Assembly (NCBI GenBank): GCA_032620915.1
Contig: CP136052.1
Span: 2,922,001 to 2,986,000 of the forward strand
Direction: 5' to 3'
Source: Oscillospiraceae bacterium NTUH-002-81
Lineage (GTDB): Bacteria > Bacillota > Clostridia > Lachnospirales > Lachnospiraceae
DNA length: 64,000 nucleotides
The position numbers and the translations under genes were made by a program. Shown here in pieces: positions 37,212 to 53,981 of the stretch. Below the pieces are notes generated by a model. The model ran no database searches. It was not told where the DNA came from and worked only from the letters and a program-made list of their open reading frames with translations. Each line of letters starts with the position of its first letter. Within the stretch, counting starts at the first letter, position 1.

Positions 37212-37260
37212 TCAGTATAAACTGTATCAGCAGCAAACACAGTTGCATTGGAGGTTGATT

Positions 37261-37689: not shown

Positions 37690-38108
37690 TTGTGGACGGT
37701 TCTTTTAATCTGGCCGTCCATGCGCTGGTCTGCCTGAGCCACAGTGGACGCTCCCTCAGCAGCGAAGCGCTGGCGGAGAACATCTGCACCAATCCCACCC
37801 GCGTCCGCCGGGTGATGGCGGGGCTGAAAAAGGCGGGAATGGTGGAGACCCGGGAGGGCTTGGACGGCGGCTACCGCCTGACGGCAGACCCCGCAACCCT
37901 TTCTCTCCGGCAGGTGGCAGAGGCGGTGAATACCCGCTTTGTGGACTGCGCGTGGCACAGCGGCGACATTGACCGGGACTGCGCCATCTGCTCCGGCATG
38001 GCGGGCGTGATGGATGCGCTGTACTGGAGCATGAATGAGGAATGCGCCGCCTATCTCTCGCACATTACGATCACGGATATTGAAAGACAGCTTTTCACGC
38101 AGAAATAG
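37686..38108 (+). CDS. Rrf2 family regulator with three-Cys motif
   Basis: A 140-aa regulator: SFNLAVHALVCLSHSGRSLS, ENICTNPTRVRRVMAGLKKA (recognition helix) and GLDGGYRLTADPATLSL. Near residue 97 the motif C-x8-9-C-x2-C (CAWHSGDIDRDCAIC) resembles the Fe-S-binding loop of IscR/NsrR proteins, so it may sense Fe-S status, NO or oxidants. It is coupled to the rhodanese gene and followed by thioredoxin. The palindrome over the operon -35 box suggests autoregulation. Confidence 0.9.
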   Translation: MIVDGSFNLAVHALVCLSHSGRSLSSEALAENICTNPTRVRRVMAGLKKAGMVETREGLDGGYRLTADPATLSLRQVAEAVNTRFVDCAWHSGDIDRDCAICSGMAGVMDALYWSMNEECAAYLSHITITDIERQLFTQK

Positions 38109-38120
38109 AAGGATTTTACG

Positions 38121-38441
38121 ATGCTTACCATTACGACCAACAGCTTTGAAAATGACGTCCTGCACGCGGACAAGCCCGTGCTGGTGGATTTCTGGGCCCA
38201 GTGGTGCCCCTACTGCCGCCGTATTGCCCCGGCCTTCGACAAGGTGGGGGAGCAGTACGCCGACACGCTCATCGCCGGCAAGATCAACTACGACGAGGAG
38301 CCGCAGCTCATCGAGCGTTTCGGCATAGACACCATCCCCACGCTGATGCTCTTTAAGAGCGGCGAGGTGATCGGCTCTGTGGTAGCGCCCGGCTCCAAAG
38401 CCGCCATTGAGACATTTATCCGGGAAACGCTGGCGCAGTGA
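38121..38441 (+). CDS. trxA: Thioredoxin (WCPYC)
   Basis: A 106-aa thioredoxin: VLVDFWAQWCPYCRRIAPAF with active site C-P-Y-C (atypical, as classical thioredoxins have C-G-P-C), the cis-Pro in DTIPTLMLFKSGE, and ETFIRETLAQ at the end. The C-P-Y-C motif is glutaredoxin-like and may shift redox potential or partner choice. It is the third gene of the rhodanese operon. A second thioredoxin with C-G-Y-C is at 44.4 kb beside thioredoxin reductase. Confidence 0.93.
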   Translation: MLTITTNSFENDVLHADKPVLVDFWAQWCPYCRRIAPAFDKVGEQYADTLIAGKINYDEEPQLIERFGIDTIPTLMLFKSGEVIGSVVAPGSKAAIETFIRETLAQ

Positions 38442-38451
38442 GGGCGTGGCT

Positions 38452-38475
38452 ATGGAGCAGATCTATGATACGCTT
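38452..38475 (+). pseudogene. Possible 5' stub of a thioredoxin reductase gene
   Basis: ATG followed by EQIYDTL, the usual first residues of thioredoxin reductases, then unrelated codons. It is only eight residues, so the call is weak, but it sits where trxB would follow trxA. Confidence 0.25.
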
Positions 38476-38551
38476 CCATGTAGCACACTTCGTGTCTCCT
38501 TAGAAACCGAGGGCAACGGTCAAAGCCATCCGTTTGCACCATGGTCAAAAT

Positions 38552-38591
38552 GCAAAAAGTGCAGCCGCAGATATTCTCTGCGGCTGCACTT
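38552..38591 (-). terminator. Intrinsic terminator after the first FprA gene
   Basis: A 15-bp perfect stem AAGTGCAGCCGCAGA / TCTGCGGCTGCACTT with a 5-base loop, followed on the minus strand by TTTTTGCATTTT. Confidence 0.88.
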
Positions 38592-38705
38592 CGATCCATT
38601 TTCAAAGCTTCGGCATCACTCAACGCCATATTGTTGTCTAAATAAATCAGCGACGATGTTTTGCTTTTGAGGCATCGGGCGGCCGGACGAAGCCAGACTC
38701 GCCGC

Positions 38706-39887
38706 CTACTCCGCGCAGAGCTCCGCCACCAGAGCGTCCATCTGCGCTTCGCTGGTTTGGTTCAGTGCGCCGCGCAGCAATACCTCTGTTTCACACAGTC
38801 GGAGTTCCTTCATCTTTTCCAACTCGGCACGCATCAGCCGCGCGGCAGCAGGGGCCCATGAGCCGTTTTCCATGAGGCCGATCCGGCGGTTTCGGAATCC
38901 CTTTGTCTGTAAATGATCCAAAAAGGCCTTCATAGGCGGGAACAGTCCTCCGTCATAGGTGGAGCAGGCCAACACCAGTTTCCCACAGTAGAATGCGCTG
39001 GTCACGGCATAGGAAAGGTCTGTTGCCGTCAGATCGCACATGGTGACTTGCGCACCTTTTCCCTCCAGCTTGCTCTTGAGGGCCTCCGATGCATATGCGG
39101 TATTTCCATGGATGGACGCGTGGACGATCAGGATGCCCTCCGGTTCTTCCGGTTTCCATTGTGACCAGAGATCATAGAGCCGCAGATACTCCCCCAAGTC
39201 TTCTGTGAGCATGGGGCCATGGAGCAGGCAGATCGTTTTGATCTCCAGCGCGGAGATTTTTTTCAGCAGCACCTGCACCTGTGCGCCATACTTTCCGACG
39301 ATGTTGTAATAATACCGCCGGGCCTGCGGCGCCCAGGGGGCACGGGCAGTCCGTTCCAGTGAACCGAAGCGGCCAAAGGCATCCGCCGAGAACAGGATTT
39401 TTTCCTCCTCTTCATATGCTGCCATCACCTCCGGCCAGTGTACCATCGGCGCCAGCAGAAAGCACAGCCGGTGCAAACCCAAGGAAAGCGTATCTCTTTC
39501 GCCAACCTCCAGCATACGGTCTTCCGACAATGCACCTGTGCCGAAGAACTGCTTGATCAGGGTAAATGTTTTCGCGTTTCCCACGATCTTCATCTCCGGG
39601 TACTTTTGTGCCAGCCGCATGAGGCTGCCGGAATGATCCGGCTCCATGTGTGTGACCACAAGATAGTCGGGGCTGCGCCCCTCCAACACCCGCGCCACAT
39701 TGGAAAGCCATTCTTCCGCCGCCCGTGCGTCCACGCTGTCCATCACGGCGATTTTCTCGTCCAGAATGACATAGGAGTTGTAGCTCACTCCCATAGGCTG
39801 GACGGGGTACTGGTTTTCAAAGAGTGCCAATGTGTTATCATCCACCCCTACATAGCGGATGGCATCTGTTACCGTTTGAATGTTCAT
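38706..39887 (-). CDS. FprA-type flavo-diiron protein, copy 1
   Basis: A 393-aa A-type flavoprotein: an N-terminal metallo-beta-lactamase-like diiron domain (VVTHMEPDHSGSL gives H-x-E-x-D-H) and a C-terminal flavodoxin domain (IVHASIHGNTAYASEAL as FMN phosphate loop). In anaerobes these reduce O2 to water or NO to N2O with electrons from rubredoxin. The MNIQTVTD start at 39887 is favoured over a TTG at 39899. The first 160 bp are identical to copy 2 at 44.9 kb, indicating recent duplication or conversion. The rubredoxin gene nearby is the likely donor. Confidence 0.93.
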   Translation of the reverse strand: MNIQTVTDAIRYVGVDDNTLALFENQYPVQPMGVSYNSYVILDEKIAVMDSVDARAAEEWLSNVARVLEGRSPDYLVVTHMEPDHSGSLMRLAQKYPEMKIVGNAKTFTLIKQFFGTGALSEDRMLEVGERDTLSLGLHRLCFLLAPMVHWPEVMAAYEEEEKILFSADAFGRFGSLERTARAPWAPQARRYYYNIVGKYGAQVQVLLKKISALEIKTICLLHGPMLTEDLGEYLRLYDLWSQWKPEEPEGILIVHASIHGNTAYASEALKSKLEGKGAQVTMCDLTATDLSYAVTSAFYCGKLVLACSTYDGGLFPPMKAFLDHLQTKGFRNRRIGLMENGSWAPAAARLMRAELEKMKELRLCETEVLLRGALNQTSEAQMDALVAELCAE

Positions 39888-39906
39888 AATACAAAACAAC
39901 TCCTTA

Positions 39907-40599
39907 TCATCTGTTCAGGACCTGCATCTCTGGGTTCTTCTCCCCGAATTTCTCGCGCAGCGCACTGCAGATATCCTCCCGGGACTTGCCCTGCTTCTCA
40001 CCGTTTTTAATGAGCTTGTACGCCTGAAACAGCGCCGAGGGGCCGATCTCGCTGCTGAAAAAGCCGATGCCCTGATTCCATGCCAGCAGCTCGAACACAT
40101 CGTCCAACGCGGCGCTCTCCACACCGTGGATATATGCCTTTACCAGCTCCCGCGCCGCCTGCCTCATCCGGCCCGCACCGACAGCGTTGGTCAGGGACAG
40201 CAGCAGCCGCGTTTCGTAGGGCAGTACGCGCTTCTCGCTCTGCCATGTGGTCTCCCAAAAATCCACGGCGATCTGCCCCAGCTTTTCATCGATCATGGGA
40301 TAGTTCAAAAGAGCCAGCGGCTTGAAGGGAGCGGAGCTGTCGCCTTCCTTCTTCTCTGTGCGGCAGAACCAGACATGGAACTCCGCCTCACTCCGCTGCT
40401 CGGTGTGGTGCTCGTAGCCCAAGCCCTCCATGACAGCGTACAGTGGATGCGGCTCAAAGGTCTGGATGATGTGCAATCCTTCGCCCACCTCCAACGCCTC
40501 GGCTCTTTTCTTCAGCCCTTCAAAGAAGCTGCCCTGTATATGGCGCACATCCACCGTCTGAAACCCCTGCGCCTTATTCTTCCAGTTTTCGTAGCTCAT
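39907..40599 (-). CDS. DUF2249 domain fused to AhpD/CMD-like domain
   Basis: A 230-aa two-domain protein. Residues 1-85 are a DUF2249 (TusA-like fold) unit with VDVRHIQGSFFEGLKKRAEA and LHIIQTFEPHPLYAVMEGLG. From about 125 a helical domain follows (LLSLTNAVGAGRMRQAAREL, VKAYIHGVESAALDDVFELL) that resembles carboxymuconolactone-decarboxylase/AhpD proteins but lacks the C-x2-C peroxidase motif. The stand-alone DUF2249 protein next door is its paralogue. A role in sulfur or thiol redox chemistry is plausible from context only. Confidence 0.75.
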   Translation of the reverse strand: MSYENWKNKAQGFQTVDVRHIQGSFFEGLKKRAEALEVGEGLHIIQTFEPHPLYAVMEGLGYEHHTEQRSEAEFHVWFCRTEKKEGDSSAPFKPLALLNYPMIDEKLGQIAVDFWETTWQSEKRVLPYETRLLLSLTNAVGAGRMRQAARELVKAYIHGVESAALDDVFELLAWNQGIGFFSSEIGPSALFQAYKLIKNGEKQGKSREDICSALREKFGEKNPEMQVLNR

Positions 40600-40603
40600 G
40601 CGG

Positions 40604-40861
40604 TTATTCTCCTTTCTTCACTCGATAAAACCAAATATGATATTCGCTGCCGCTCACCTTCTCCGTGTGATGCGCAAAGCCCATAAGGGCCAGCACCGGG
40701 TACAGGGGGACAGGCTCGAAGGTCTGGATGATATGCAGTCCTTCGCCGTTTTTCAGCGCGGCAGCCTTTGCCTTCAATGCGGGGAAGAAGTCCATCTTTT
40801 TGCCCCGCACGTCCATCACTTCAAATGTGCCGATTTTGTCCTTCCAGTTTTCATAACTCAT
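40604..40861 (-). CDS. DUF2249 protein
   Basis: An 85-aa single-domain paralogue of the N-terminal part of the adjacent fusion (FEVMDVRGKKMDFFPALKAK, LHIIQTFEPVPLYPVLALMG, EYHIWFYRVKKGE). DUF2249 has a TusA-like fold; its function is unknown. The start at 40861 is chosen because the family alignment begins MSYENW; the frame is open further upstream only as a shadow of rubredoxin. It lies 4 bp from the fusion gene and 25 bp from rubredoxin. Confidence 0.8.
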   Translation of the reverse strand: MSYENWKDKIGTFEVMDVRGKKMDFFPALKAKAAALKNGEGLHIIQTFEPVPLYPVLALMGFAHHTEKVSGSEYHIWFYRVKKGE

Positions 40862-40886
40862 AGTCTTTGCCTCTCTTGCAGAAAGC

Positions 40887-41042
40887 TCACGCCTCTTCAA
40901 AGGAATCCTTACCCACGCCGCACAGGGGGCATTCAAAATCCTCCGGCACCTCGCTCCATGGCGTTCCCGGCGCGATGCCGCCCTCGGGATACCCCACGCC
41001 CTCGTCGTACTCCCAACCGCAAACGGTGCATACATACTTCAT
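40887..41042 (-). CDS. Rubredoxin
   Basis: A 51-aa rubredoxin, too short for many gene finders. [20 protein letters not shown] and [17 protein letters not shown] give the two C-x2-C knuckles that bind one iron; GIAPGTPW is the conserved loop. It is the expected electron donor to the FprA flavo-diiron proteins encoded on both sides. GAAAGAAGGAAG precedes the ATG. Confidence 0.95.
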
Positions 41043-41075
41043 TGTGCTTCTTCCTTTCTTTTTCTAATGATTTTG

Positions 41076-41467
41076 TTATTCTTCCACCAGCCGGCCGTCC
41101 ACCGTCACGGTGACCACCTGCCACGGGATGAACTTCCCGCTCTGCTGGAGTGCCTTTTTCGCCGCCAGCTCCAGCCCGCAGCAGCAGGGTACCTCCATGC
41201 GGACGACGGTAACGCTCTTGATGTCGTTTTCCCGGATGATCTCCGTCAGCTTTTCGGCATAGTCCACGCTGTCCAGCTTGGGACAGCCCACCAGCGTGAT
41301 GTGTCCCTTGATGAACCGCTCGTGGAAGGCGGCGTAAGCGTAGGCGGTGCAGTCGGCGGCGATCAGCAGCCGCGCCCCGTCAAAATACGGGGCGTTTACC
41401 GGCACCAGCTTGATCTGCACCGGCCACTGGGAAAGGCGGCTCGTCTGCTGGGCTTGCGGCGTTTCAT
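41076..41467 (-). pseudogene. Iron-sulfur protein lacking its ferredoxin domain
   Basis: The C-terminal 115 residues of a common anaerobe protein: SQWPVQIKLVPVNAPYFDGA, LLIAADCTAYAYAAFHERFI, GHITLVGCPKLDSVDYAEKL and VVRMEVPCCCGLELAAKKAL. Intact relatives start with a two-cluster ferredoxin domain. Here AGGAGGACCGAAC and an ATG encode only MKR before a jump directly to the C-terminal part in another frame. An internal deletion removed the ferredoxin domain, so the leftover is probably not made or is inactive. Confidence 0.72.
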
Positions 41468-41481
41468 GTTCGGTCCTCCTG

Positions 41482-41539
41482 TTGCTTTTGTGCGCTCATT
41501 GTACTATACTAAAAGCAACAAGTCGGTTGAATTTTCAAC
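41482..41539 (+). promoter_or_regulatory. Promoter and Fnr-type site of the Crp/Fnr gene
   Basis: TTGCTT (41482-41487), 17 bp, TATACT (41505-41510). Downstream GTTGAA-TT-TTCAAC (41526-41539) is a perfect palindrome of the TTGA-N4-TCAA type bound by Crp/Fnr proteins, positioned for autorepression. Confidence 0.65.
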
Positions 41540-41554
41540 GAAAGAGGCCTTTTT

Positions 41555-42250
41555 ATGAAAGAATTTTTTCCGGTGCTCCATACGGCGGTGCTTTTCTCCG
41601 GCATTTCCGATGAGGAGCTTGCCGCTATGCTCTCCTGCCTTGGGGCGAGGATCGGCACCTTTCCCAAAGGCTCCCGCCTGCTCCGCGCCGGGGAGTCGGT
41701 GGAGGAGGTGGGTCTCGTGCTGGCGGGCAGCGCCCTCATCGTGCAGGAGGATATCTGGGGAAACCGCAACATCCTCTCCAAGACCGGGCCGGGGCAGACC
41801 TTCGCGGAGGTGTTCGCCTGTGCGCCGGGAGCGGTGCTGAACGTGAGCGTAGAGGCGGAGAGCGCGATGACGGTGATGTTTCTACACATAAGGCGTGTTT
41901 TGAGCGTGTGCCCCTCCGCCTGCTCCCACCATAGCCAGATCATTCACAACCTGCTGGGCGAGTTAGCGGAGAAAAACCTGCGGCTCAACGAAAAACTCAC
42001 CCACATGGGCCAGCGCACGACACGGGCCAAGCTGCTGTCCTATTTTTCCGGTGAGGCGCAGCGCCGGGGCGGCTATGAATTCGACATTCCGTTCTCCCGC
42101 CAGCAGCTTGCGGATTATCTCGGCGTAGAGCGCAGCGGGCTGTCGCTGGAACTTGGAAAAATGCGGGATGAGGGCCTGCTCGACTTTCACAAAAGCCATT
42201 TCCTTCTCAAAACGCCGGAAACTGACCGTCCCTTTCCTTCTGCGCGTTAA
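41555..42250 (+). CDS. Crp/Fnr family regulator
   Basis: A 231-aa regulator with an N-terminal cyclic-nucleotide-binding-like beta-barrel (VLFSGISDEELAAMLSCLGA, FPKGSRLLRAGESVEEVGLV) and a C-terminal HTH (FSRQQLADYLGVERSGLSLE). It has no N-terminal Cys cluster for an Fe-S centre. Such proteins in anaerobes often control hybrid-cluster, flavo-diiron or nitrosative-stress genes. A TTGA-N4-TCAA palindrome is present in its own leader. It is divergent from the damaged iron-sulfur protein gene. Confidence 0.92.
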   Translation: MKEFFPVLHTAVLFSGISDEELAAMLSCLGARIGTFPKGSRLLRAGESVEEVGLVLAGSALIVQEDIWGNRNILSKTGPGQTFAEVFACAPGAVLNVSVEAESAMTVMFLHIRRVLSVCPSACSHHSQIIHNLLGELAEKNLRLNEKLTHMGQRTTRAKLLSYFSGEAQRRGGYEFDIPFSRQQLADYLGVERSGLSLELGKMRDEGLLDFHKSHFLLKTPETDRPFPSAR

Positions 42251-42284
42251 GGAGTCCTCTTTGGGCGTATTGGCAAGTGCGGAT

Positions 42285-42316
42285 AACCCCCGTCAGCCAC
42301 GGAGCGTCGGGGTTTT
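42285..42316 (+). terminator. Terminator after the Crp/Fnr gene
   Basis: AACCCC / GGGGTT with extra CG pairing, followed by TTTT, 35 bp after the stop. The stem is moderately strong. Confidence 0.55.
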
Positions 42317-42363
42317 GCAGATGGAAGAAGCAGCTACGGTCTGTAGAGATCGGCAGGACAGCG

Positions 42364-42984
42364 TCAGCGCGTACAATCTGATTTGATCATACCCACAGCC
42401 GCTTTGGCTGTGGGTATTTTCTGTTTGAACTCCAAAAGCTTTGCAGAGCTCAAGGAGCCTAAGCCTTCACCGCGTCCAGGTATCTTTTCTTTTTGCGGTG
42501 TGTATTCGTAATACTGGAAAGTGATCTGCCGTTTTTCCTGAATGGCGTTATGGATCTCATCCACGCTGTAATAAATACACTCATTCTCCGGTTTGGCGGT
42601 ACCTTCCATATAGATATGCCGATCCAACTGGCGGGCATGAGATTCACTGGTGAGCTTACCCAGCTTTTCAATAAGCCGTTCGCTTTTCTTGGCCGTAATG
42701 AAGCGGGAGGATTCCACCGCGTCCACCAGCAATTTTAACTCCGGCAGTTCAAATAACCGTTCTCCTACGAAGTATCGGTTCTGGGTGCTTTTGACACAGA
42801 CGATGTCCATGCCGTTGCTTTGCAAGACTTCAATAGCGGAATATACGCTCTTGCGCCCTGCCTGAATGCCATGTTCCCGCCAGTAGGCAAGAATATCCGC
42901 TACGGAAGGCGGATGCTGATCATCCGTATGCTCATACAGATACTGCTGTAAGAGCAGCAGACCGTATTGGAATTCATTTTTCAT
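42364..42984 (-). pseudogene. WYL-domain regulator, 3'-truncated
   Basis: A 206-codon frame. The N-terminal winged helix (QYGLLLLQQYLYEHTDDQHP, YSAIEVLQSNGMDIVCV) and the start of the WYL domain (EIHNAIQEKRQITFQYYEYT) are normal. After residue about 170 the sequence is unrelated and runs through a rho-independent terminator hairpin, so the true C-terminus (about 110 more residues, including the W-Y-L motif) has been lost. The start at 42984 follows AAAGGAAAGCGGT. Confidence 0.72.
42389..42421 (+). terminator. Intrinsic terminator inside the truncated WYL frame
   Basis: A 12-bp perfect stem ATACCCACAGCC / GGCTGTGGGTAT (42389-42400 and 42406-42417) followed by TTTTC on the plus strand. Confidence 0.75.
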
Positions 42985-43191
42985 ACCGCTTTCCTTTTCT
43001 ATTTCCACATTTTTAGGAACAATTCGTTACAGTACTTCTTTATAGCTATCCCTTTCGGGTGATATACAAGCCCTCGCGGTGATTAAGTCATGACTTTTTT
43101 CTGCTCACATTTTCGCGGCAAATCTCCAAGGCAGGGAGCGGCAATCATAATCGTACAACCGGAGCAGCGCCGCGCCGATTTTCTCAAATCA

Positions 43192-43233
43192 TGTGACGTC
43201 GTCACAGTAAAACCGCTTGTCACGCGGTATACT
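43192..43233 (+). promoter_or_regulatory. Orphan Crp/Fnr-class promoter
   Basis: TGTGACG-T-CGTCACA (43192-43206) is a perfect 15-bp palindrome. A TATACT box at 43228-43233 with no -35 element places the palindrome centre about 41 bp before the expected start, the class II activator position. Confidence 0.5.
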
Positions 43234-43237
43234 ATGC

Positions 43238-43277
43238 ATAAAAACACAGCCGCAGAGTACATCTGTGGCTGTGTTTT
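43238..43277 (-). terminator. Hairpin terminator downstream of trxB
   Basis: AAAACACAGCC(G)CAGA / TCTG(T)GGCTGTGTTTT with a short loop; T-rich on both strands. It lies 177 bp beyond the trxB stop and directly after the orphan promoter. Confidence 0.65.
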
Positions 43278-43453
43278 GTGTTCAGTTGCTCACTGTTGCG
43301 TGGACTGGATATGGAGAGACAACATATCTCCCGATCTTACATGGGTTATCTTATCTACCATCACTCTGGCAGTTTGCCTTGCAGATATGTCGGCATCCCC
43401 ACTGCAGTCGTATCCGGCCTGACCTTAAACATGGCTTTTTCAATCTACCTCCC

Positions 43454-44383
43454 TTATCGGTTTTCCGCGATATATTTCTCCGCCATGTGAACTGCCATCG
43501 CGCCGTCCGCCACGGCGGTGACCACCTGACGGAGGGGCTTCGTCCGCACGTCGCCCACGGCGTAAACGCCGGGAATACTGGTTTCCGTGGTCTCTCCGGC
43601 CACGATATAGCCGCCGCCGTCCAGCGCCAGTTGACCCACCGCCAACGCCGTGGCGGGCTGTCGGCCCACGCTGACAAATACGCCGTCGCAGTCCACCACG
43701 CTTTCCTCACCGGTGACGGTGTCCCGCAGGCGTACGCCGGTCAGCCTGTCCCCGGAAAGCAGCGCGGAAACGGTGCTGTTCCAGCGGAATTCCACATTTT
43801 CGGCCTGTTCCAGTGGCTCGTGATAGATCTTGGTGGCCCGCAGGGTGTCTCTGCGGTGGACGAGGATCACCTTTTTCGCCACGCGGCTGAGAAGGAGGGC
43901 ATCTGCCGCGGCGGAATTGCCGCCGCCCACCACGACCACCGTTTTGTCCTTGTAAAACATCCCATCGCAGGCGGCGCAGTAGGCCACGCCCCGGCCCAAC
44001 AGCTCCGTCTCTCCGGCAACGCCCAGCGTTCTGGGGTCTGCGCCGGTGGCCAGCACCACGGTTTTCCCCCGGAAGATCCCCTCGCTGGTCTCCACGAGCT
44101 TGGGAACCGCCGTCAGATCCATGCAGAGAACTTCCGCGTATTCGCTGCGTGCCCCAAAACGCTCCGCCTGCTTTTGCATCTTCTCCGCCAGAGAGAAGCC
44201 GTCGATCCCGTTCTCAAAGCCGGGGTAGTTGTCGATCTGCTCGGTCAGGGCCATCTGCCCGCCAGCAGACAGCTTTTCCAGCACGACGATGTCCAGCCCC
44301 GCCCGTGCCGCGTACAGGGCGGCGGTGTAGCCGCCCGGGCCGCCGCCCACCACGAGCATATCATAAACATGATTGTTGTTCAT
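43454..44383 (-). CDS. trxB: Thioredoxin reductase
   Basis: A 309-aa flavoenzyme: FAD site VVGGGPGGYTAALYAARAGL, redox-active CAACDG (Cys residues about 134 and 137), NADPH site VVVVGGGNSAAADALLLSRV, and SIPGVYAVGDVRTKPLRQVV at the end. It reduces thioredoxin with NADPH. It lies 14 bp after its thioredoxin gene. Together with two thioredoxins it supplies electrons to ribonucleotide reductase NrdAB, methionine sulfoxide or peroxide repair; the nrdAB genes follow within 3 kb. Confidence 0.95.
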   Translation of the reverse strand: MNNNHVYDMLVVGGGPGGYTAALYAARAGLDIVVLEKLSAGGQMALTEQIDNYPGFENGIDGFSLAEKMQKQAERFGARSEYAEVLCMDLTAVPKLVETSEGIFRGKTVVLATGADPRTLGVAGETELLGRGVAYCAACDGMFYKDKTVVVVGGGNSAAADALLLSRVAKKVILVHRRDTLRATKIYHEPLEQAENVEFRWNSTVSALLSGDRLTGVRLRDTVTGEESVVDCDGVFVSVGRQPATALAVGQLALDGGGYIVAGETTETSIPGVYAVGDVRTKPLRQVVTAVADGAMAVHMAEKYIAENR

Positions 44384-44397
44384 ATCTGAACCCTCCG

Positions 44398-44721
44398 TTA
44401 TTTCGCCAAGGCTTTCTGAATGAAGCGGTCGATCTCTGCCTTTGAGCCGGGCGCGGTGATGGAATCCACGGCCTTTCCGTTCCGGTACAGCACCAGAGTT
44501 GGGATGACCTCGATCCCCTCGGCCCCCGCCAGCCGCGGCTCCTCGTCAATATTGATCTTGCCGACGGCAAGGCTGTCCGCGTATTCCTCTCCAATCTTCT
44601 CATACGCAGGGCCGATCCTCCGGCAATAGCCGCACCAGGGCGCCCAGAAATCCACCAAAACAGGCTTTTCCTCCCGGATCAACTGCTTAAACTGCTCCTG
44701 ATTCATGTTCATAGCTGCCAT
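44398..44721 (-). CDS. trxA: Thioredoxin (WCGYC)
   Basis: A 107-aa thioredoxin: VLVDFWAPWCGYCRRIGPAY with C-G-Y-C, cis-Pro at EVIPTLVLYRNGK and the C-terminal helix. It is the direct partner of trxB downstream. GGAGCTGACAGAT precedes the ATG at 44721. The 60-70% similar thioredoxin at 38.1 kb and the paired FprA copies suggest that a trx-fprA block was duplicated. Confidence 0.94.
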   Translation of the reverse strand: MAAMNMNQEQFKQLIREEKPVLVDFWAPWCGYCRRIGPAYEKIGEEYADSLAVGKINIDEEPRLAGAEGIEVIPTLVLYRNGKAVDSITAPGSKAEIDRFIQKALAK

Positions 44722-44882
44722 ATCTGTCAGCTCCTTTCCTTTGTTTGGGTATTCTCAAGACTCCGGTCTCGCCCCACACCACATCGTGACTTCAACCTGA
44801 GATGACGGTACTCTGCCCTTGGGACATAAAGCAGATGAGTAAGACCCTCATCTGTACGAGAATAGCTGCGGTTTGTTGCAGC

Positions 44883-46064
44883 TTATTCCGCGCAGAGCTC
44901 AGCCACCAGAGCGTCCATCTGCGCTTCGCTGGTTTGGTTCAATGCACCACGCAGAGACACTACCGTTTCGTAAAGGTGGATATCCTTCATCTCCTCCAAT
45001 TTGGTGCGCATCAGCCGCGCGGCAGCAGGTGCCCAAGAGCCGTTTTCAATAAGGCCAACCCGGCGGTTTCGGAATCCCTTTGTCTGTAAATGTTCCAAAA
45101 ACTCCTTCATGGGCGGAAACAGTCCTCCGTCATAGGTGGAGCTGGCTAAAACCAACTTCCCGCAGTAGAACGCACTGGCAACAGCGTAGGAAGAATCTGT
45201 CACAGCGAGATCACATATGTTGACCTGCACGCCTTTTTTCTCTAATTTACCCTTGAGGGTCTTCGCCGCATGGGCAGTATTTCCATGGATGGATGCGTGG
45301 GCAATCAGTATGCTCTCCGATTCTTCTGGTTCCCATTGTGACCAGAGATCATAGAGCCGCAGACACTCCTCCAGCCCTTCTGTAAGCACGGGACCATGGA
45401 GCGGGCAGATCGTTTGGATCTCCAGCGCGGCGGTCTTTTTCAGCAGAGCCTGCACCTGTGCGCCATATTTCCCGATAATATTGTAATAATACCGCCGGGC
45501 CTGCGGCACCCAGGGGGCACGGGCAGTCCGTTCCAGTGAGCCAAAGCGTCCGAAGGCATCCGCCGAGAACAGGATTTTTTCCTCCTCTTCATACGCTGCC
45601 ATCACCTCCGGCCAGTGTACCATCGGTGCCAGCAGGAAGCGCAGCCGGTGTGAGCCCAGAGAGATCGTGCTGCCCTCGCCAACCTCCAGCATACGCTCTT
45701 CCGACAATGCACCTGTGCCGAAGAACTGCTTGATCAGGGTAAATGTTTTTGCGTTTCCCACGATCTTCATCTCCGGGTACTCTTGCGCTACCCGCATGAG
45801 GCTGCCGGAATGATCCGGCTCCATGTGTGTGACCACAAGATAGTCGGGGTTGCGCCCCTCCAACACCTGTGCTACATTGGAAAGCCATTCCTCCGCCGCC
45901 CGTGCGTCCACGCTGTCCATCACGGCGATTTTCTCGTCCAGAATGACATAGGAGTTGTAGCTCACTCCCATAGGCTGGACGGGGTACTGGTTTTCAAAGA
46001 GTGCCAATGTGTTATCATCCACCCCTACATAGCGGATGGCATCTGTTACCGTTCGGATATCCAT
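44883..46064 (-). CDS. FprA-type flavo-diiron protein, copy 2
   Basis: A 393-aa close paralogue of copy 1 (same length, nearly identical first 90 residues). H-x-E-x-D-H in VVTHMEPDHSGSL, HWPEVMAAYEEEEK, SADAFGRFGSL, and flavodoxin loop ASIHGNTAHAAKTL. Predicted O2 or NO reductase taking electrons from rubredoxin. Differences from copy 1 accumulate in the flavodoxin half, which may indicate different donors. It lies between trxA and nrdB on the same strand. Confidence 0.93.
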   Translation of the reverse strand: MDIRTVTDAIRYVGVDDNTLALFENQYPVQPMGVSYNSYVILDEKIAVMDSVDARAAEEWLSNVAQVLEGRNPDYLVVTHMEPDHSGSLMRVAQEYPEMKIVGNAKTFTLIKQFFGTGALSEERMLEVGEGSTISLGSHRLRFLLAPMVHWPEVMAAYEEEEKILFSADAFGRFGSLERTARAPWVPQARRYYYNIIGKYGAQVQALLKKTAALEIQTICPLHGPVLTEGLEECLRLYDLWSQWEPEESESILIAHASIHGNTAHAAKTLKGKLEKKGVQVNICDLAVTDSSYAVASAFYCGKLVLASSTYDGGLFPPMKEFLEHLQTKGFRNRRVGLIENGSWAPAAARLMRTKLEEMKDIHLYETVVSLRGALNQTSEAQMDALVAELCAE

Positions 46065-46101
46065 ATAAAAAATACCTCCTATTCTGATGTCTTTGGTTTT
46101 C

Positions 46102-47145
46102 TTATAAATCGTCTATCAGTGCGGTGCTCTTGGCGTAGGCGGTACTGCGTGCCTCAAAGAAATCGGTCTTGACCATATTGGCGTCAGCGTACTGGCTGAC
46201 CCATTCCATGCTCTCCGGTTCGCTCTCAAAGCCCGGATACAATGCCGGATAGCCAAGGCTCGTCCAGCGAAGATTGCCGAGATAGCGGATGTAATCGCTA
46301 ATCATCTGCCGGTTCAACCCCGGGATGTCGTCGCCGATCACATAATGCCCCCATGCGATCTCCTGCTCCACGCCCTCACGCATCATCTCGCGCAGCGCTT
46401 GTACGCTCTCGGCGGTGAACAACTCCGGCTGCTCCTTTTGCAGCTCCGTGATGATATTGCGGAACAGCCACAAGTGCGTGTTCTCGTCGCGGTTTATATA
46501 GCGGATCTCCTGCGCCGAGCCGGGCATCTTCCCGTTTCGGGAGAGATTGTAGAAGAACATAAAGCCGCTGTAAAAATAGATGCCCTCCAAAATATAGTTC
46601 GCCATCATCACGCGCAGCAGCGTGGGAGCGCCCTTCCGCTCCTGAAACTCGTTGTAGCAGTCCCCAATGAAGGTGTTGCGGCGCAGCAGATGCTCGTCCG
46701 TTTTCCATTGGTAGAGGATGTCATTGCGCTCCACGGGGGAACAGATGGTGTCGAGCATATAGCTGTAGCTCTGTGAGTGGACACACTCCTGAAACGCCTG
46801 AATGGACAGGCAGAGATTGACCTCGTTGGCTGTAATGTAGGCGCCGATATTAGGCAGGTTCGCTGTCTGAATGGAATCCAAAAAGACAAGAAAACTCAGA
46901 ATTTTATCGTAGGCGCTGCGCTCGGCTGACAGCAGGCGGGGATAGTCCTTCACATCCTGCGAGAGATTGATCTCCTCAGGGATCCAAAAGTTGTTCATGG
47001 CCTGCCGGTACCAGTCGCTGACCCAAGCGTACTTCATATTGTTGAAGTCGTTGAGGTTGGTGGTATTGCCGCCGATCATGCGCCGCAGGCGCACATCAGG
47101 GTCGCCCTCCGGGTTAAAGAGGGGCTTTTTCTTCAGTTCCATCAT
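46102..47145 (-). CDS. nrdB: Ribonucleoside-diphosphate reductase beta subunit (class I)
   Basis: A 347-aa R2-type radical subunit. LSAERSAYDKILSFLVFLDS (Asp/Glu ligand), NEVNLCLSIQAFQECVHSQS with Y following (Glu, His and radical Tyr) and GIYFYSGFMFFYNLSRNGK / RDENTHLWLF (second Glu-x2-His) give the dimetal site. It forms the active enzyme with NrdA and makes deoxyribonucleotides under oxic or micro-oxic conditions, unusual next to strictly anaerobic genes but fitting the oxidative island. The start at 47145 follows AAGGAGGATAGC. Confidence 0.94.
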   Translation of the reverse strand: MMELKKKPLFNPEGDPDVRLRRMIGGNTTNLNDFNNMKYAWVSDWYRQAMNNFWIPEEINLSQDVKDYPRLLSAERSAYDKILSFLVFLDSIQTANLPNIGAYITANEVNLCLSIQAFQECVHSQSYSYMLDTICSPVERNDILYQWKTDEHLLRRNTFIGDCYNEFQERKGAPTLLRVMMANYILEGIYFYSGFMFFYNLSRNGKMPGSAQEIRYINRDENTHLWLFRNIITELQKEQPELFTAESVQALREMMREGVEQEIAWGHYVIGDDIPGLNRQMISDYIRYLGNLRWTSLGYPALYPGFESEPESMEWVSQYADANMVKTDFFEARSTAYAKSTALIDDL

Positions 47146-47155
47146 GCTATCCTCC

Positions 47156-49673
47156 TTATGACGAGCAGCTTTCACAGGCCTCGACCTCAAGGGCCTTGCT
47201 GCGGACATAATAAATGGTCTTGACGCCGGCCCTCCACGCCTCCAAATACAGTCTGAGCACCTGACGCATGGAATAGTCGTTGGTGATATAGAGATTCATG
47301 CTCTGCGCCTGGTCAATATGTCTCTGGCGAAAGCCCGCGGCGCGTACCGACCAGCTTTGGTCGATCAGATGCGCCGCCTTATAGTACCACCATGTATCCA
47401 TAGAAAGCTCCGGAGCAACGCGGGGCAGCATGCTGCCCTTTTTTTTCCTCTAAAAAGAATTTCTTCATAATTGGATCGATGCCCGCCGACGTGCCGGAGA
47501 GGATAGATGTGCTGGAGGTGGGTGCGACAGCCAGCAGATAGGCGTTGCGCATTCCCTGCACCGCCACCGTTTCCGCAAGCGCCCGCCACTTTTCTGAGGT
47601 ATAACCTCGCTTTTCAAAATACGCGCCTGTCTGCCAGTCGCTGCCCTCAAAGAGCGCATAGCGGCCCTTTTCCCGTGCCAGTGCTGTGTCCGCCTTGACG
47701 GCGGCGTAGTTGATATGCTCGAATACCGCATCGGTGAAGGCAAGGTGCTCATCGCTCTCCCATCGGATGCCGCGCTTTGCCAGCATGTGGTGGTAGCCGC
47801 TGACGCCCAGGCCGATGCTGCGGTACTTCTGATTGGTAAGCCGCGCGTATTCCAACGGGTAGAAGTTGAGGTCGATCACATTATCCAGTGCGCGGATGGC
47901 CGTTTCCACCGTGCGTTCCATATAGGCCTCGTCCTCCACCGCCAGATTACCGAGAGACAGACTCGCCAGGTTGCAGACCACAAACTCACCGGGGCGTGTG
48001 GCCGTCACCACCACTGTGTCGCCGTTCTCCGTGTGCACCTCAGTGCTGATATGCTCGATGGGCGCCATGTTCTGTGCGATCTCCGTGCAGAGATTGGAGC
48101 AATAGATCATTCCCGTGTGGCCGTTTGGGTTCATACGATTTACGCTGTCGCGGTTGAAGGCGAAGGGCGTGCCGGTCTCCACTGCCGAGCGAAGCACCAG
48201 CCGCACGATGTCCTTGACGGTGACGCTGCGCTTTTCGATGCGCGGGTCATTGACGCAGTCCAGATACCGCTTCTCCCATTCCGTACCCCAGTAATCCTCC
48301 AGTGCGTAGCCCTTGACCGTGAGGATCTCATGCGGACACATGAGATGCCACGGCGCGTCTATGTTCTCCTCCGCCAGTCGCCAGAAGAGATCCGGATAGC
48401 ACACGGCGGGGAACACATCATGCGCCTTCATGCGGTCGTCGCCGTTGTTGGTGCGCAGTTGAAGGAATTCAGGCAGATCCCGGTGCCATGCGTCTAAGTA
48501 AACCGCCGCAGCGCCCTGCCGCATCCCCAACTGATCCACCGCCACGGCGGTGTCGTTGACCAACCGGATCCAGCGGATAACACCGCCCGCCGCCCCTTGA
48601 AAGCCGCGGATGGTGCTGCCTGCAGCGCGCACCTTACCGAAGTACATCCCCATTCCACCGCCAAATTTAGAGACTTTTGCGAAGTTGTCCAGCGAGCGGT
48701 AGATGCCGTCCAGACTGTCCGGCACAGTGTCCACAAAGCAGCTTGAAAGCTGATGGTAGGGCTTTCGTGCGTTGGACATGGTAGGTGTCGCCATCGTGAC
48801 CTCCATACGGCTGAGCATATCGTAAAAGCGTTTTACCCACCCCATGCGGTCAGAGCCTTCGTTCATAGCAAGATGCAGCGCGATACCCAAAAACATCTCC
48901 TGCGGTGTTTCCAGCGGCACGCGGCTGCGTGACTGGATCACATAGCGTTTGAGCAGCAGGTCAAGGCCGGAGTAGGTGAACAACTCGTCCCGTTCCGGGC
49001 AGAGAAAGTCCTCCGCCATAGCGATCTCCTCGTGGGTATAGTGGGCAAGAATATAGTCACCGTAGAGTCCCTTATCCGTCAGATAGCGAAGCCTGCCATA
49101 GAGGTCGCCGACGCCGCGCCCCTCCCATTCCTGTGCGTTGCGACAGCGAAAGGAGTGGTTCAGAAGCCGCGCCGCGATGAACTCCCACTTGGGTGCCTCT
49201 GCCGTAGTCAGCTCTACCGCTGCCTTGGTCAGTGCCTCAGCCCTCTCATCCTCCGTCATGCCCGGGCGACAGAAGCTCTCAAACTTCATTTGAAGCGCCG
49301 CGAGGGAGTAGATTTCCTCGGTAAAATCCATCTGGATACGGCGCAGCACCTCGTCAAGCGAGTTATCCCCCACCGTCTGCGCGATGGTATGCCGGACGCG
49401 GCGCAGCGCAGACCGCTTTTCGCGATAGAGGATGTACGCCTTGGCCACCTCATAGTGTCCGCGCTCCATGAGCGTCCGCTCCACCTCGTCCTGCACACGT
49501 TCCACGGTGAGCGGTACTGTGACGGAGAGATTGTCGAGAACGGCGGCGAGGATCTCCTCCAGTTCTCCGCCCCCAATCTCCCTTCCCTGTCCATCAAACG
49601 CCTTTTTCATGGCGTTGAAAATTTTCTCCTGTTGAAAAGGAACAGACTTCCCGTTTCGTTTTCTGATCTCCAT
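47156..49673 (-). pseudogene. nrdA: Ribonucleoside-diphosphate reductase alpha subunit, one frameshift near 3' end
   Basis: The catalytic subunit, about 840 codons when read through. N-terminal ATP cone (MEIRKRNGKSVPFQQEKIFN), active-site Cys in YHQLSSCFVDT, finger-loop motif IYCSNLCTEIAQNM, and ATSS-type APTSSTSILSGTSAGIDPIM. After KKFFLEEKKG the frame breaks at a run of eight A (47439-47446); seven would continue into MLPRVAPELSMDTWWYYKAA and the C-terminal redox pair CESCSS. Because everything else is intact, this is probably functional with an over-called base. It lies 10 bp before nrdB. Confidence 0.9.
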
Positions 49674-49721
49674 TTCGATCCTCTCATCTTCTCCGGTCAC
49701 TTCTCATGTCCTTTTGGGCAA

Positions 49722-49763
49722 AGAGCGGGCAAGCGCAGTATCACGCTTGCCCGCTCTGTTTTT
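49722..49763. terminator. Terminator between nrdA and third FprA gene
   Basis: A 14-bp perfect stem AGAGCGGGCAAGCG / CGCTTGCCCGCTCT (49722-49735, 49744-49757). Plus-strand T-run GTTTTTG follows; the minus-strand side has TTTG. It ends transcription from the FprA/dehydrogenase side. Confidence 0.8.
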
Positions 49764-49838
49764 GAAAGCCGGTTTTTCTGCAGCCGACACGGCGGGGCTG
49801 TTTGTTGTCTGTTGTCTTGGTTTTGTCTTCCCTGCCAG

Positions 49839-51050
49839 TTACTTCATAGATTCCAGAATGGCGTCCGCCAGTGCTTCCAGCTCAGTGCGCTTGTCCGTGC
49901 CCATGGACGAGGCGAGGCTGAGCCGCTCGTTGAGCACCGTCATGTTCTTAAGCTCATCGTTGACGAATTTCTGCATGAGGTCACCGGACTTCACCGCCCA
50001 TGAGCCGTTTTCAATGATGGCAAAGGTGCGGTTTTGCAGATTCAGTGCCTTCATATCCATGAGGAAGTCATGCATGGCGGGGTAGATGCCGAGATTGTAG
50101 GTCACAGAGGCCAGGACAATGTGACTGTACTTAAACGCCTCGGAGATCAGCTGGGAGACATGAGTGGAGGACACATCGTACATCGCCACCTTGCTCATGC
50201 CCTTATCGCAGAGCGACGCCGCCAGCGCCTGCGCCGCGTTCTCCGTGTTGCCGTACATGGAGGCGTAGACGATGAGCACGCCCTGGGTCTCAGGGGCATA
50301 GCGGCTCCATGTGTCGTACTTTTCGATGAACCAGCCCAGATCCTTGCGCCACACGGGGCCGTGGAGCGGGCAGATGTACTTGATCTGATCCAAAACGCCG
50401 CCGGCCTTTTTCAGCAGGAGCTGGATGTGGGGGCCGTACTTGCCCACGATGTTGGTGAGATAGCGGCGGGCGTCGTCCAGCCAGTCCCGCTCGAAGTCCA
50501 CCTCGTCGGCGAACAGCTTGCCGTCCAGCGCGCCGAAGGTGCCGAAGGCGTCGGCGGAAAAGAGGACGCCGTCGGTGACGTCGAGGGTCACCATGGCCTC
50601 CGGCCAGTGAACCATAGGCGCGCCCACAAAGGTGACGGTGTGCTTGCCAAAGGAGAAGGTGTCGCCCTCCTTCACCTCGATGCACTCATGTCCGTCCACA
50701 TGGAAGCCGAACTGCCGCATGAGCATGAATGCCTTCTCGTTGGAGATCAGCTTCACCTTGGGATGGCGCAGCAGGACCTCCTCGATGCAGGCGGCGTGAT
50801 CCGGCTCCAGATGGTTGACCAGCAGGTAGTCCAGCTCGCGGCCATCCAGCACATACGCCAGATTTTCCAAAAGCTGGCGGCAGGCAGACCAGTCCACCGT
50901 GTCAAAGAGCACCGTCTTTTCATCCAGCAGGCAGTAGGCGTTGTAGCTTACGCCCCGGGGAATGGGAAAGCAGTTTTCAAACAGGGCCAGGCGATGGTCG
51001 TTGGCGCCCACCCAGTAGAGATCGTTCGTTACTTTACGCACGCAATACAT
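49839..51050 (-). CDS. FprA-type flavo-diiron protein, copy 3
   Basis: A 403-aa A-type flavoprotein, clearly more distant from copies 1 and 2. LLVNHLEPDHAACIEEVL (H-x-E-x-D-H), APMVHWPEAMVTLD and SADAFGTFGALDG supply diiron ligands, and IVYASMYGNTENAAQAL is the FMN loop. It follows the acyl-CoA dehydrogenase-EtfA-rubredoxin fusion by 22 bp. The rubredoxin domain of that fusion is therefore a likely electron donor, coupling substrate oxidation to O2 reduction; this is inference from order and domains. Confidence 0.93.
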   Translation of the reverse strand: MYCVRKVTNDLYWVGANDHRLALFENCFPIPRGVSYNAYCLLDEKTVLFDTVDWSACRQLLENLAYVLDGRELDYLLVNHLEPDHAACIEEVLLRHPKVKLISNEKAFMLMRQFGFHVDGHECIEVKEGDTFSFGKHTVTFVGAPMVHWPEAMVTLDVTDGVLFSADAFGTFGALDGKLFADEVDFERDWLDDARRYLTNIVGKYGPHIQLLLKKAGGVLDQIKYICPLHGPVWRKDLGWFIEKYDTWSRYAPETQGVLIVYASMYGNTENAAQALAASLCDKGMSKVAMYDVSSTHVSQLISEAFKYSHIVLASVTYNLGIYPAMHDFLMDMKALNLQNRTFAIIENGSWAVKSGDLMQKFVNDELKNMTVLNERLSLASSMGTDKRTELEALADAILESMK

Positions 51051-51072
51051 CTTATCTTACCTCCTTCACGGC

Positions 51073-52986
51073 TCAAGCCTTTACAAATTGATCCTTCGTC
51101 TCCGCGCACTCGGGACACACCCACTCGGCGGGAAGCTGCTCAAAGAGCGTACCGGGTGCGATCTCGCCGTCCTCGTCGCCCAACTCCGGCACATACTCGT
51201 AGCCGCAGCCGCTGCAGACGTAGCGGTCGCCGATGGGGGTGGGCTTCGGCGGCGTGGGCCGCTTCATCTTTACCATGGGCGGCGCGGGCAGCTTTTCGCC
51301 GCTATCCAGCGCAGCAGTGAGCAGGGGCAGGATCTCCTCCACATCGCCCACGATGCCGTAGTCGCAGTTCTTGAAGATAGGCGCGTTACCGTTCTTATTG
51401 ATGGCCACGATGGTGGAGGCGTCCTTGATGCCCTTAAGGTGCTGGGATGCGCCGGAGATGCCGCAGGCGATGTACAGATTGCCGGTGAACTTCTGCCCGG
51501 ACATACCCACATAGCGGTTCAGCGGCAGATATTTGAGAGTCTCCGCCACAGGGCGGGAAGAACCGATGGCCGCGCCGGCGGCCTTGGCCAGCGACTCTAC
51601 CAGTTTCATGTTCTTTTTCTCCCCGATGCCCTTGCCCGCGGAGACCACCCGCTCCGCCTGCGGGATGGGCGTATCCATAGGGATGCCCACGGAGAAGTCG
51701 TGACCATCCTTCTTCAGCGCCGCTACAAGGTCGGCCACCTGCTGGGCAGCATCCCCTTCCCGGAAGATGGTCTTTTTGCGAATGCCGGTGATGGGCGCGG
51801 GTTTCTTGGCCGCCGAACGGCTCTCGCCGCCGGAGCTCTTGCCCAGCCTGCCCACCAGATGAGAGGCGATGACCACCCGCTGGATCTCGTTAGTGCCCTC
51901 GTAGATGGTGGTGATCTTGGCGTCGCGGTAGGCCCGTTCCACCTCCATGCCCTTGAGGAAGCCACTGCCGCCGTGGATCTGCAAGGCATCGTTGGTGACC
52001 TCCAGCGCGATGTCCGAGGCGTACATCTTCGCCATGGCGGACTCCATGCCGTAAGGCGCGTGCTGCTCCTTCAGCTCCGCCGCGGAGTAGATGAGGAACC
52101 GGGCGCAGCGCAGCTTGGTGGCCATATCCGCCAGCTTGAAGGCGATGCTCTGCTGGGCCGCGATGGGCTTGCCGAACTGGACGCGCTCCTTGGAATAGCT
52201 CAACGCGTGCTCAAACGCGCCTTGGGCGATGCCCAGCGCCTGCGCGGCGATGCCGATGCGTCCGCCGTCCAGCGTGGACATGGCAATCTTGAAGCCCTCG
52301 CCCTCCTTGCCCAATAGGTTTTCCTTGGGAACCTTCACGTCGTTGAAGATCAGCTCCGCCGTGGAGGAGGAGCGAATGCCCATCTTGTCATAGTGGTCGC
52401 CGAACTCAAAGCCCTTCCAGCCCTTCTCCACGATGAAAGCGGAGATGCCCCGGGTGCCGATGTCCGGCGTGGTGACGGCGAAAACCACATAGGTGTCCGC
52501 CTTAGGGGCGTTGGTAATGAAGATCTTGCCGCCGTTGAGGAGGTAGTAGTCCCCCTTATCCAGCGCCGTGGTCTCCGTGCCGCCGGCGTCGGATCCAGCG
52601 TTGGACTCCGTGAGGCCGAAGGCGCCGATCTTCTCGCCCTTGGCCAGCGGAACCAGATATTTCTTCTTCTGCTCCTCGGTGCCATAGGCGAAAATGGGCC
52701 ATGAGCCGAGGGAGACGTGGGCGGAGAGGATTACGCCCGCGCCGCCGTCCACACGGGCCAGCTCCTCCACCGCGATGGCGTAGCTCAGGGCATCAAGACC
52801 GGCACCGCCGTACTCCTTGGGGTAGGGAATGCCCATCCAGCCCAGCTTACCCAGCTTCTTGACAGCCTCCTCGGGAAACTCATTGTTCTGATCCATTAAA
52901 AATGCGAGGGGCTTGATCTCCTCCTCCGCAAAACTCCGGATCTTCGCGCGCAGCTCTTCGTGCGCCGCCGTGGTTTGAAACAGCAT
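51073..52986 (-). CDS. Acyl-CoA dehydrogenase-EtfA-rubredoxin fusion protein
   Basis: A 637-aa protein holding a whole electron relay. Residues 1-380 are an acyl-CoA dehydrogenase ([45 protein letters not shown] then [16 protein letters not shown] with the catalytic Glu). Residues about 400-560 are an EtfA C-terminal FAD domain ([54 protein letters not shown]). Residues about 585-637 are a rubredoxin ([10 protein letters not shown] and [13 protein letters not shown]). Electrons would flow from acyl-CoA via two flavins to iron and then probably to FprA copy 3, next downstream. The EtfB-like half is absent. Confidence 0.92.
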
Positions 52987-53008
52987 ACGGGTACCTCCTC
53001 TTAAAATT

Positions 53009-53440
53009 TTACAGCTCGCTTGTATCTTGGGGATCGGATCCGCCGGTCAGCAGCCTGCGCAGGCTCACGGCGCGGAACGCCTCGTCCTGCTCTCGCTGCA
53101 AGGCCGCCAGCTGACAGTGGATGGCGCACCGCCCATGCTTGTCCTGCCAGCGGCATTCATATCCCGGCTCCATGCAGGCGCACAGGATGCCCCGCTCCCC
53201 CATGACCTCCATGAGATCGTAGAGGGAGGTCGCGCCCAGATCACAGGACAGCGCGCAGCCGCCGAGGGCGCCGCGGCTCACCCGCACCAAATTGCCGGCG
53301 GAGAGCTTGCGCAGGATCTGGTAGGCAAACTGATTGGGGATCAATTCCGTTTCCGACATCTCGGCCACCGAATGCTTCTCCCCGTCCAGCAGCACCCGCA
53401 AAATGCGCAGCGCGTAGTCCGTCTCTTTTGTGATGATCAT
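53009..53440 (-). CDS. Rrf2 family regulator with four-Cys loop
   Basis: A 143-aa regulator heading the fusion/FprA operon. TKETDYALRILRVLLDGEKH, PNQFAYQILRKLSAGNLVRV (recognition helix) and SRGALGGCALSC (wing). The loop CACMEPGYECRWQDKHGRC then AIHC contains several Cys able to bind an Fe-S cluster, so it may sense O2 or Fe-S supply. It lies 22 bp upstream of the fusion gene on the same strand and probably autoregulates the operon. Confidence 0.9.
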   Translation of the reverse strand: MIITKETDYALRILRVLLDGEKHSVAEMSETELIPNQFAYQILRKLSAGNLVRVSRGALGGCALSCDLGATSLYDLMEVMGERGILCACMEPGYECRWQDKHGRCAIHCQLAALQREQDEAFRAVSLRRLLTGGSDPQDTSEL

Positions 53441-53652
53441 GCTCCGAATCCTCTTTTCGCTTGCTTGTTAATGCCATCATATCAATCTTGATAAATTTTG
53501 TCAAGATAATTTTCAAAAAAAAATATCGCTTTAACACAGACCGCCCCAGCCCGGGTCAGCTTCGCTTTCCATTCAGCGAAAAGCCATGTTCCTTACAATT
53601 ATAGAAGCCGAAAAAGCTGTGCCGTGGCAGTCCGCCGAAAGCAGAAAAGACT

Positions 53653-53766
53653 ATGACTGAAAACCAGAAAGCGGAGAAATTGGTTGGGGCTCGCAGGGGT
53701 CGCCCACCCAAGGCGGATGAGGCGATCCCTGACAAGCCTAAGCCATCCAACCGAAACAAGCAATAA
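53653..53766 (+). CDS. 37-aa basic peptide with AT-hook-like motif
   Basis: MTENQKAEKLVGARRGRPPK then ADEAIPDKPKPSNRNKQ. The R-G-R-P core is that of AT-hook peptides. The ATG overlaps the end of another short frame (ATGACTGA), as in densely packed mobile-element operons. The ribosome binding site is weak. Probably a remnant or a tiny mobile-element protein. Confidence 0.4.
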   Translation: MTENQKAEKLVGARRGRPPKADEAIPDKPKPSNRNKQ

Positions 53767-53788
53767 AGTGCGTGCTTTTCATTTTATA

Positions 53789-53981
53789 TTCGACACATTA
53801 TGTTATGATAGGAAAGGTCAAGCTCCGTCAGTTCCAAAGCTGTCATTTTTGCGCGAATGGCCGTTGCCAGTACATCAATGCGCTTGTCAAGCCTTTATTA
53901 TCTTCTGGTAAACTTGAAATGATGTTTCCAGACAAACCCAAAAGCAAAAACCAGAAATACACTACCGTTCATTCCAAATAA
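53789..53981 (+). pseudogene. C-terminal stub of an AlbA_2-type regulator
   Basis: CANGRCQYINALVKPLLSSG then KLEMMFPDKPKSKNQKYTTV, the end of the winged helix typical of AlbA_2/ATPase regulators (P-x-K-P-x-S-x-x-Q-K-Y). Everything upstream is missing. It is followed by a strong terminator. Confidence 0.55.

Follow-up and report, generated by a model that had tools for sequence, protein, structure and literature searches.

A butyryl-CoA oxygen oxidoreductase-type operon with a candidate Rrf2 operator on DNA shared between Lachnospiraceae and Oscillospirales

The butyryl-CoA oxygen oxidoreductase (BOOR) of Fusobacterium nucleatum was reportedly described by Bystrom & Wolthers in 2024 in Biochemistry 63:2352. 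In the accessible text of later sources, BOOR is the pair of BCR and a flavodiiron protein (FDP) encoded by FN1424-FN1423 (PMC12288474, PMC12630350, PMC13404960). Electrons are described there as passing from butyryl-CoA to O2 in the order acyl-CoA, FAD, EtfA-FAD, rubredoxin and FDP (PMC12288474, PMC13404960), within an a4b4 complex (PMC12288474). According to the available text of a July 2026 preprint, an Rrf2-family regulator (UniRef50_C0FN14) is encoded beside BOOR pairs in gut Clostridia, and ribonucleotide reductase (RNR), thioredoxin and rubrerythrin genes occur near these Rrf2-BOOR loci, especially in F. prausnitzii (PMC13404960).

The window, meaning the whole stretch of 64,000 nucleotides analysed here, carries a locus of this type (Table 1). 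Its fusion protein has the same three domains in the same order as the F. nucleatum protein and an adjacent flavodiiron gene, and the host likewise carries Bcd-Etf and rnfC. On the basis of domain order and partner gene, the fusion is by analogy the BCR subunit of a BOOR-type enzyme, a kind of enzyme that has already been published. With an Rrf2 regulator bearing D8 and cysteines next to the BCR-FDP pair, and RNR and thioredoxin close by, the window is an instance of the Rrf2-BOOR neighbourhoods described in the available part of PMC13404960. Set against the description of the F. nucleatum system, the pair here is preceded by Rrf2 and followed by genes for a class I RNR, another FDP and thioredoxin, and the operon sits on DNA common to other families. 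We consider it very probable that BCR and FDP3 together burn O2 with butyryl-CoA, that Bcd-Etf recycles the product, that Rrf2 represses the operon and that the operon was acquired horizontally.

Table 1. Features of the BOOR-type locus and its surroundings, in window positions.
Feature	Position	Strand	Basis or remark
Rrf2-family regulator, D8 and Cys 87, 89, 96, 105, 109	53009..53440	-	ORF, Pfam, inspection
Candidate Rrf2 operator: palindrome TTGACAAAATTTATCAA overlapping a promoter TTGACA-17-TATGAT whose -10 box is preceded by TG	53476..53504	-	
BCR, acyl-CoA dehydrogenase (~1-378), EtfA FAD domain and rubredoxin (588-634)	51073..52986	-	ORF, Pfam
FDP3, class A flavodiiron protein of two domains; presumed to reduce O2 as the partner of BCR	49839..51050	-	ORF, Pfam
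NrdA, ribonucleotide reductase large chain	47379..49700	-	ORF; ends early, 773 aa vs 847 in C. fessum
NrdB, ribonucleotide reductase small chain	46102..47208	-	ORF; start codon as listed by ORF finder
FDP2, flavodiiron protein, 41% identical to FDP3 and 86% to FDP1	44883..46064	-	
Thioredoxin	44398..44721	-	
FDP1, flavodiiron protein	38706..39899	-	
GC-rich stretch matching Faecalibacterium, Oscillibacter and C. fessum, probably composite	28206..53810	.	

The BCR gene is a single intact frame of 637 aa. Pfam models place Acyl-CoA_dh_N at 6-118, Acyl-CoA_dh_M at 122-217, Acyl-CoA_dh_1 at 229-377, the FAD domain of EtfA (ETF_alpha) at 441-521 and Rubredoxin at 588-634, all well over their cut-offs, and longer models extend the EtfA domain to about 560. 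The first-pass annotation had described three domains in one polypeptide; its coordinates were exact and Pfam confirms the domains, while the minus strand had been left unstated. Read on the plus strand, the frame given by 51,073-52,986 is closed by stops. The absence of EtfB and of the EtfA N-terminal half, also noted in that annotation, is borne out as well, with neither model among the seven families matched. A plain bifurcating Bcd-Etf was ruled out as the identity of BCR because EtfB is missing. The acyl-CoA dehydrogenase (ACAD) domain and the EtfA C-terminal domain are homologous to those of bifurcating Bcd-EtfAB (5ol2) and of caffeyl-CoA reductase CarCDE (6fah); unlike these systems, BCR has neither EtfB nor the EtfA N-terminal half and carries a rubredoxin domain, and bifurcation by BCR would not be expected.

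Full-length fusions, with C-terminal parts up to 100% identical, are present in other genomes and in metagenomes, so the fusion is not due to chance. E363 (in the motif YEGT) and C591, C594, C624 and C627 are invariant in 25 aligned BCR rows; by motif role, E363 is the base of the ACAD and the four cysteines are those of the rubredoxin. No solved structure spanning all three domains was found among the best 60 of 203 matches for the whole protein. Two database relatives (P0032 and P0037) show an internal duplication inside the EtfA domain, either real or an assembly error.

For the ACAD domain, the closest solved structure is 5ol2_C (490 bits), a chain of what we take to be the Bcd-Etf complex of C. 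difficile. The best NCBIfam match is the acryloyl-CoA reductase AcrC with 490 bits against a cut-off of 640, so no equivalog cut-off is reached, and the identity to the host's own Bcd is about 59%. Both values would suit the same chemistry on another substrate, in which the ACAD domain couples a different short- or branched-chain acyl-CoA to O2. This is improbable, since among solved structures the acyl-CoA dehydrogenase chain of 5ol2 comes closest, the accessible text has the homolog of F. nucleatum reportedly acting on butyryl-CoA (PMC12288474) and the genes of the butyrate pathway are present in the host. Butyryl-CoA is the predicted substrate. The host has genes for thiolase, crotonase and 3-hydroxyacyl-CoA dehydrogenase (named from their translations), two bcd-etfBA sets and rnfC, the sole rnf gene sought. 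The bcd-etfB-etfA set is apparently duplicated, with the copies 13.9 kb apart (G000:C1:1,104,000-1,121,000; L179, L180), and the frame of the first of the two etfA genes is broken, giving 155 aa compared to 353 aa. We take the long frames between the two sets to resemble 4-hydroxybutyryl-CoA dehydratase and CoA-transferase.

By analogy with the homologs, E363 would act as the base while the FAD of the ACAD domain takes up the electrons of butyryl-CoA, leaving crotonyl-CoA. The tethered EtfA domain would accept these electrons on its own FAD and hand them to the rubredoxin iron, from which they would reach FMN and the diiron site in FDP3, where O2 would be reduced to water. Crotonyl-CoA would be converted to butyryl-CoA again by the bifurcating Bcd-Etf, and through this recycling the removal of O2 could feed Rnf-driven energy conservation. 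The earlier proposal of an acyl-CoA-to-O2 route via rubredoxin and FprA is supported, as it is the same as the route reported for BCR-FDP of F. nucleatum. The description of the fusion as a self-contained conduit had to be given up, because the adjacent flavodiiron protein is needed. The internal flavin route had also been called unusual. It is the C-terminal domain of EtfA, however, that holds the FAD docking onto the acyl-CoA dehydrogenase in Bcd-Etf complexes (5ol2, for example), which makes the loss of EtfB and of the EtfA N-terminal half less odd.

The next gene, termed FprA copy 3 in the first-pass annotation, is indeed a two-domain flavodiiron gene, starting 22 bp downstream of BCR on the same strand. 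FDP3 has only a beta-lactamase-like and a flavodoxin domain, which makes it a class A flavodiiron protein by Pfam. Its candidate diiron ligands H80, E82, D84 and H85 (HxExDH, 80-85), H148, D167 and H230 lie in the usual motifs, which are those of the diiron ligands. The window has two further flavodiiron genes, FDP1 and FDP2, and the whole genome has four that exceed the ODP cut-off, FDP3 among them.

The pairing of the two genes was surveyed in the best 80 loci of at least 527 relatives, a set that is biased towards close relatives and in which a few loci share one genome. An FDP is encoded 17-571 nt downstream of the BCR homologue on the same strand in all 76 testable loci, leaving out four of the 80 with less than 400 nt of downstream sequence. 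In a second sample of genomes, some of which overlap the 80-locus set, an FDP adjoins 20 of the 21 full fusions, that of the window included. The refuting outcome set beforehand, a fusion that is never found beside FprA, therefore did not occur, and an acyl-CoA dehydrogenase with chance neighbours was rejected as an explanation on the same counts. The sole exception is a full fusion with no neighbouring FDP (L211/L212, 7,877-9,823 of L212; G717).

Two partial variants were observed in relatives. At 7,538-9,675 of L213 (L210/L213; G623), a protein with the EtfA FAD domain and rubredoxin but no acyl-CoA dehydrogenase domain is encoded directly before an FDP, and no match to the acyl-CoA dehydrogenase domain of BCR was found within 14 kb. 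It may represent an unfused BOOR-like variant. At 5,386-7,071 of L214 (L046/L214; G287), an acyl-CoA dehydrogenase-EtfA fusion occurs with neither rubredoxin nor FDP.

The best NCBIfam matches of FDP3, below cut-off, are flavorubredoxin NO reductases, and the regulator has the Asp8 that is given as NsrR-like in the available text of PMC13404960. These two features could point to a NO detoxification module, with FDP3 mainly reducing NO and Rrf2 serving as an NsrR-like NO sensor. Such a role is quite unlikely here: the accessible text on the BCR-FDP complex of F. nucleatum reports no NO reductase activity (PMC12288474), and the adjacent class I RNR is taken as an oxygen-resistance gene in the available text of PMC13404960. 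Of the O2/NO reductase function first assigned to FDP3, reduction of O2 is retained by homology and reduction of NO is dropped, as the homolog is reported to have no such activity. FDP3 is accordingly named in Table 1 as the presumed O2-reducing partner of BCR, with which it may form a complex like that of its homolog.

The Rrf2 gene lies upstream of BCR, as had been noted before, and this order was found in 41 of 66 loci, the other 14 of the 80 having too little upstream sequence to be counted. By inspection of the window protein alone, it has the Asp8 and the three cluster cysteines (C87/C89, C96, C105) of the C0FN14-type Rrf2. The promoter upstream of Rrf2 is near-perfect with 11 of 12 matching positions and is the top-scoring of five promoter-like sites in 10.4 kb, compared to 4.2 in shuffles. 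A palindrome of the form TTGAYAAANTTTRTC overlaps its -35 box.

The pattern TTGAC-N7-RTCNA occurs in 39 of the 42 sequences with Rrf2 upstream, that of the window included, and in none of the 32 loci without it, three of which (L097, L131 and L138) have a diverged Rrf2 match upstream. Single-base shuffles of the 42 sequences gave a mean of 0.04 and at most two occurrences. A variant of the pattern was found in 38/42 sequences with Rrf2 and 0/32 without, and after thinning of similar upstream stretches the counts were 28/30 and 0/24; all of these patterns were written after viewing the same sequences, and the promoter itself is part of the signal. The stricter full dyad TTGA-N9..11-TCAA is present in only 14 of the 42 sequences with Rrf2. 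Genome-wide, TTGAYAAANTTTRTCNA has one exact site, at the Rrf2 promoter, where it reads on both strands; allowing one mismatch adds three more sites, compared to two for a reversed control. The single exact site suggests that Rrf2 is a dedicated autoregulator of the BOOR operon. Bound at the palindrome over the -35 box, Rrf2 would probably repress its own operon and release the operator when O2 or reactive species damage its cluster. A literature search found no earlier report of a conserved Rrf2 site at the BOOR operon, and the main text of PMC13404960 mentions no motif, operator, binding site, palindrome or promoter; the conserved site is added here.

On the minus strand, the gene order is Rrf2, BCR, FDP3, NrdA, NrdB, FDP2 and thioredoxin. 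NrdA was found near BCR in eight of the 53 loci with at least 5,500 nt of downstream sequence (L071-L076, L087 and L101), all of them close relatives of the window copy. The NrdA frame of the window breaks near a T run (plus strand) at 47,156-47,450, and the remainder continues in another frame; this early end is either a true frameshift or a sequencing error. Further genes of redox or stress type lie at 36,379-42,250, encoding a ferritin-like protein, a thioredoxin, FDP1, a DUF2249 protein, a rubredoxin and a Crp-type regulator.

The GC content is 0.52-0.61 at about 28,000-54,000, compared to 0.40-0.53 on either side within the window. The DNA of BCR, FDP and Rrf2 is 99.1% identical in C. fessum, which is placed in Clostridiaceae by NCBI, 98.2-98.4% in three Faecalibacterium genomes and 93.6-97.9% in four Oscillibacter records. 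For the rpoB region, the best match is 78% in C. fessum and 66-73% in the other seven, these values being identities of the best matching piece of 988 to 3,171 bases. An operon this similar (93.6-99.1%) beside rpoB regions that reach 66-78% at best indicates that it came to its Lachnospiraceae host by horizontal transfer. In a quick FastTree of 93 BCR genes, in which many rows are flagged for base make-up, the window and C. fessum nest in an otherwise Oscillospiraceae set, with starred support for the seven-row set; it is the DNA identity, more than this tree, that carries the case for transfer. A transfer from the Oscillospirales (the Faecalibacterium and Oscillibacter side) to the Lachnospiraceae is the likelier direction, not a proven one. 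A genome of the same genus (G597) carries a different BCR version, 83% identical to that of the window. The host is assigned to the Lachnospiraceae because the BCR loci of G653, from its family, and of G597 coincide in position with L094 and L116, which bear the label Lachnospiraceae, and have identical BCR genes; G813 corresponds in the same manner to L071 of C. fessum. No earlier report of a transfer of the BOOR operon was found in a literature search. In the main text of PMC13404960, the lone occurrence of 'horizontal' refers to Bacteroidia regulators, and transfer of the operon is added here.

Long stretches that are 97-98% identical at the DNA level to Faecalibacterium, a member of another order, could also arise from an assembly artefact in which Faecalibacterium DNA was misjoined to the chromosome, and the contamination estimate of the genome is 2.74%. 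An artefact is nevertheless very improbable: the genome is a single contig of 3,622,424 bases, C. fessum has the same 10.6 kb at 98% within a contig of 884,797 bases, where the right flank is a different one, and the BCR gene of the window differs from all other rows of the tree.

The transferred island is probably composite, since 28.2-34.9 kb and 35.4-53.8 kb of the window match different contigs in Faecalibacterium assemblies, with gaps and rearrangements. C. fessum matches 43.2-53.8 kb and shorter pieces left of 27.7 kb. Beyond the edge at 53,810, C. fessum, F. longum, Oscillibacter MSJ-31 and ER4 have a further 4-6 kb in common, which argues that the window copy is trimmed. No empty island site with the right flank was found across 41 related genomes, and no integrase or other transfer agent was identified in the island (28.2-53.8 kb). 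Elsewhere in the window, an 8.7-kb stretch at 14,371-23,099 encodes a Mob_Pre relaxase along with a large serine recombinase. In C. fessum the same flanks are joined without the stretch and so show the empty site, which makes an integrated mobilizable element the probable reading. A group II intron match lies at 26,836-26,920, and about 100 bases beside it were found again in at least six of nine genomes.

A BCR match was found in 16 of 299 sampled genomes of the host family, the window's own included, 15 of which are full fusions, and in 3 of 196 sampled genomes of the host's order. This patchy distribution indicates that BCR is not needed for butyrate metabolism. The kind of enzyme itself is ordinary; the interest that remains lies in the mobility of the operon, in its candidate operator and in the partial variants of relatives.

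With BOOR, a weak reductant would be enough for fermenters to remove O2, and the product would be recycled through the energy-conserving Bcd-Etf. It seems likely that BOOR and its one-site Rrf2 switch form a mobile aerotolerance module, linked to the aerobic RNR, which has recently moved between Oscillospirales (Faecalibacterium and Oscillibacter) and Lachnospiraceae. Butyrate producers would then gain or lose O2 tolerance, at the cost of butyrate, by transfer and not by lineage. If the operon travels between gut orders together with a dedicated regulator and its predicted operator, this would help to explain the patchy oxygen tolerance of butyrate producers.
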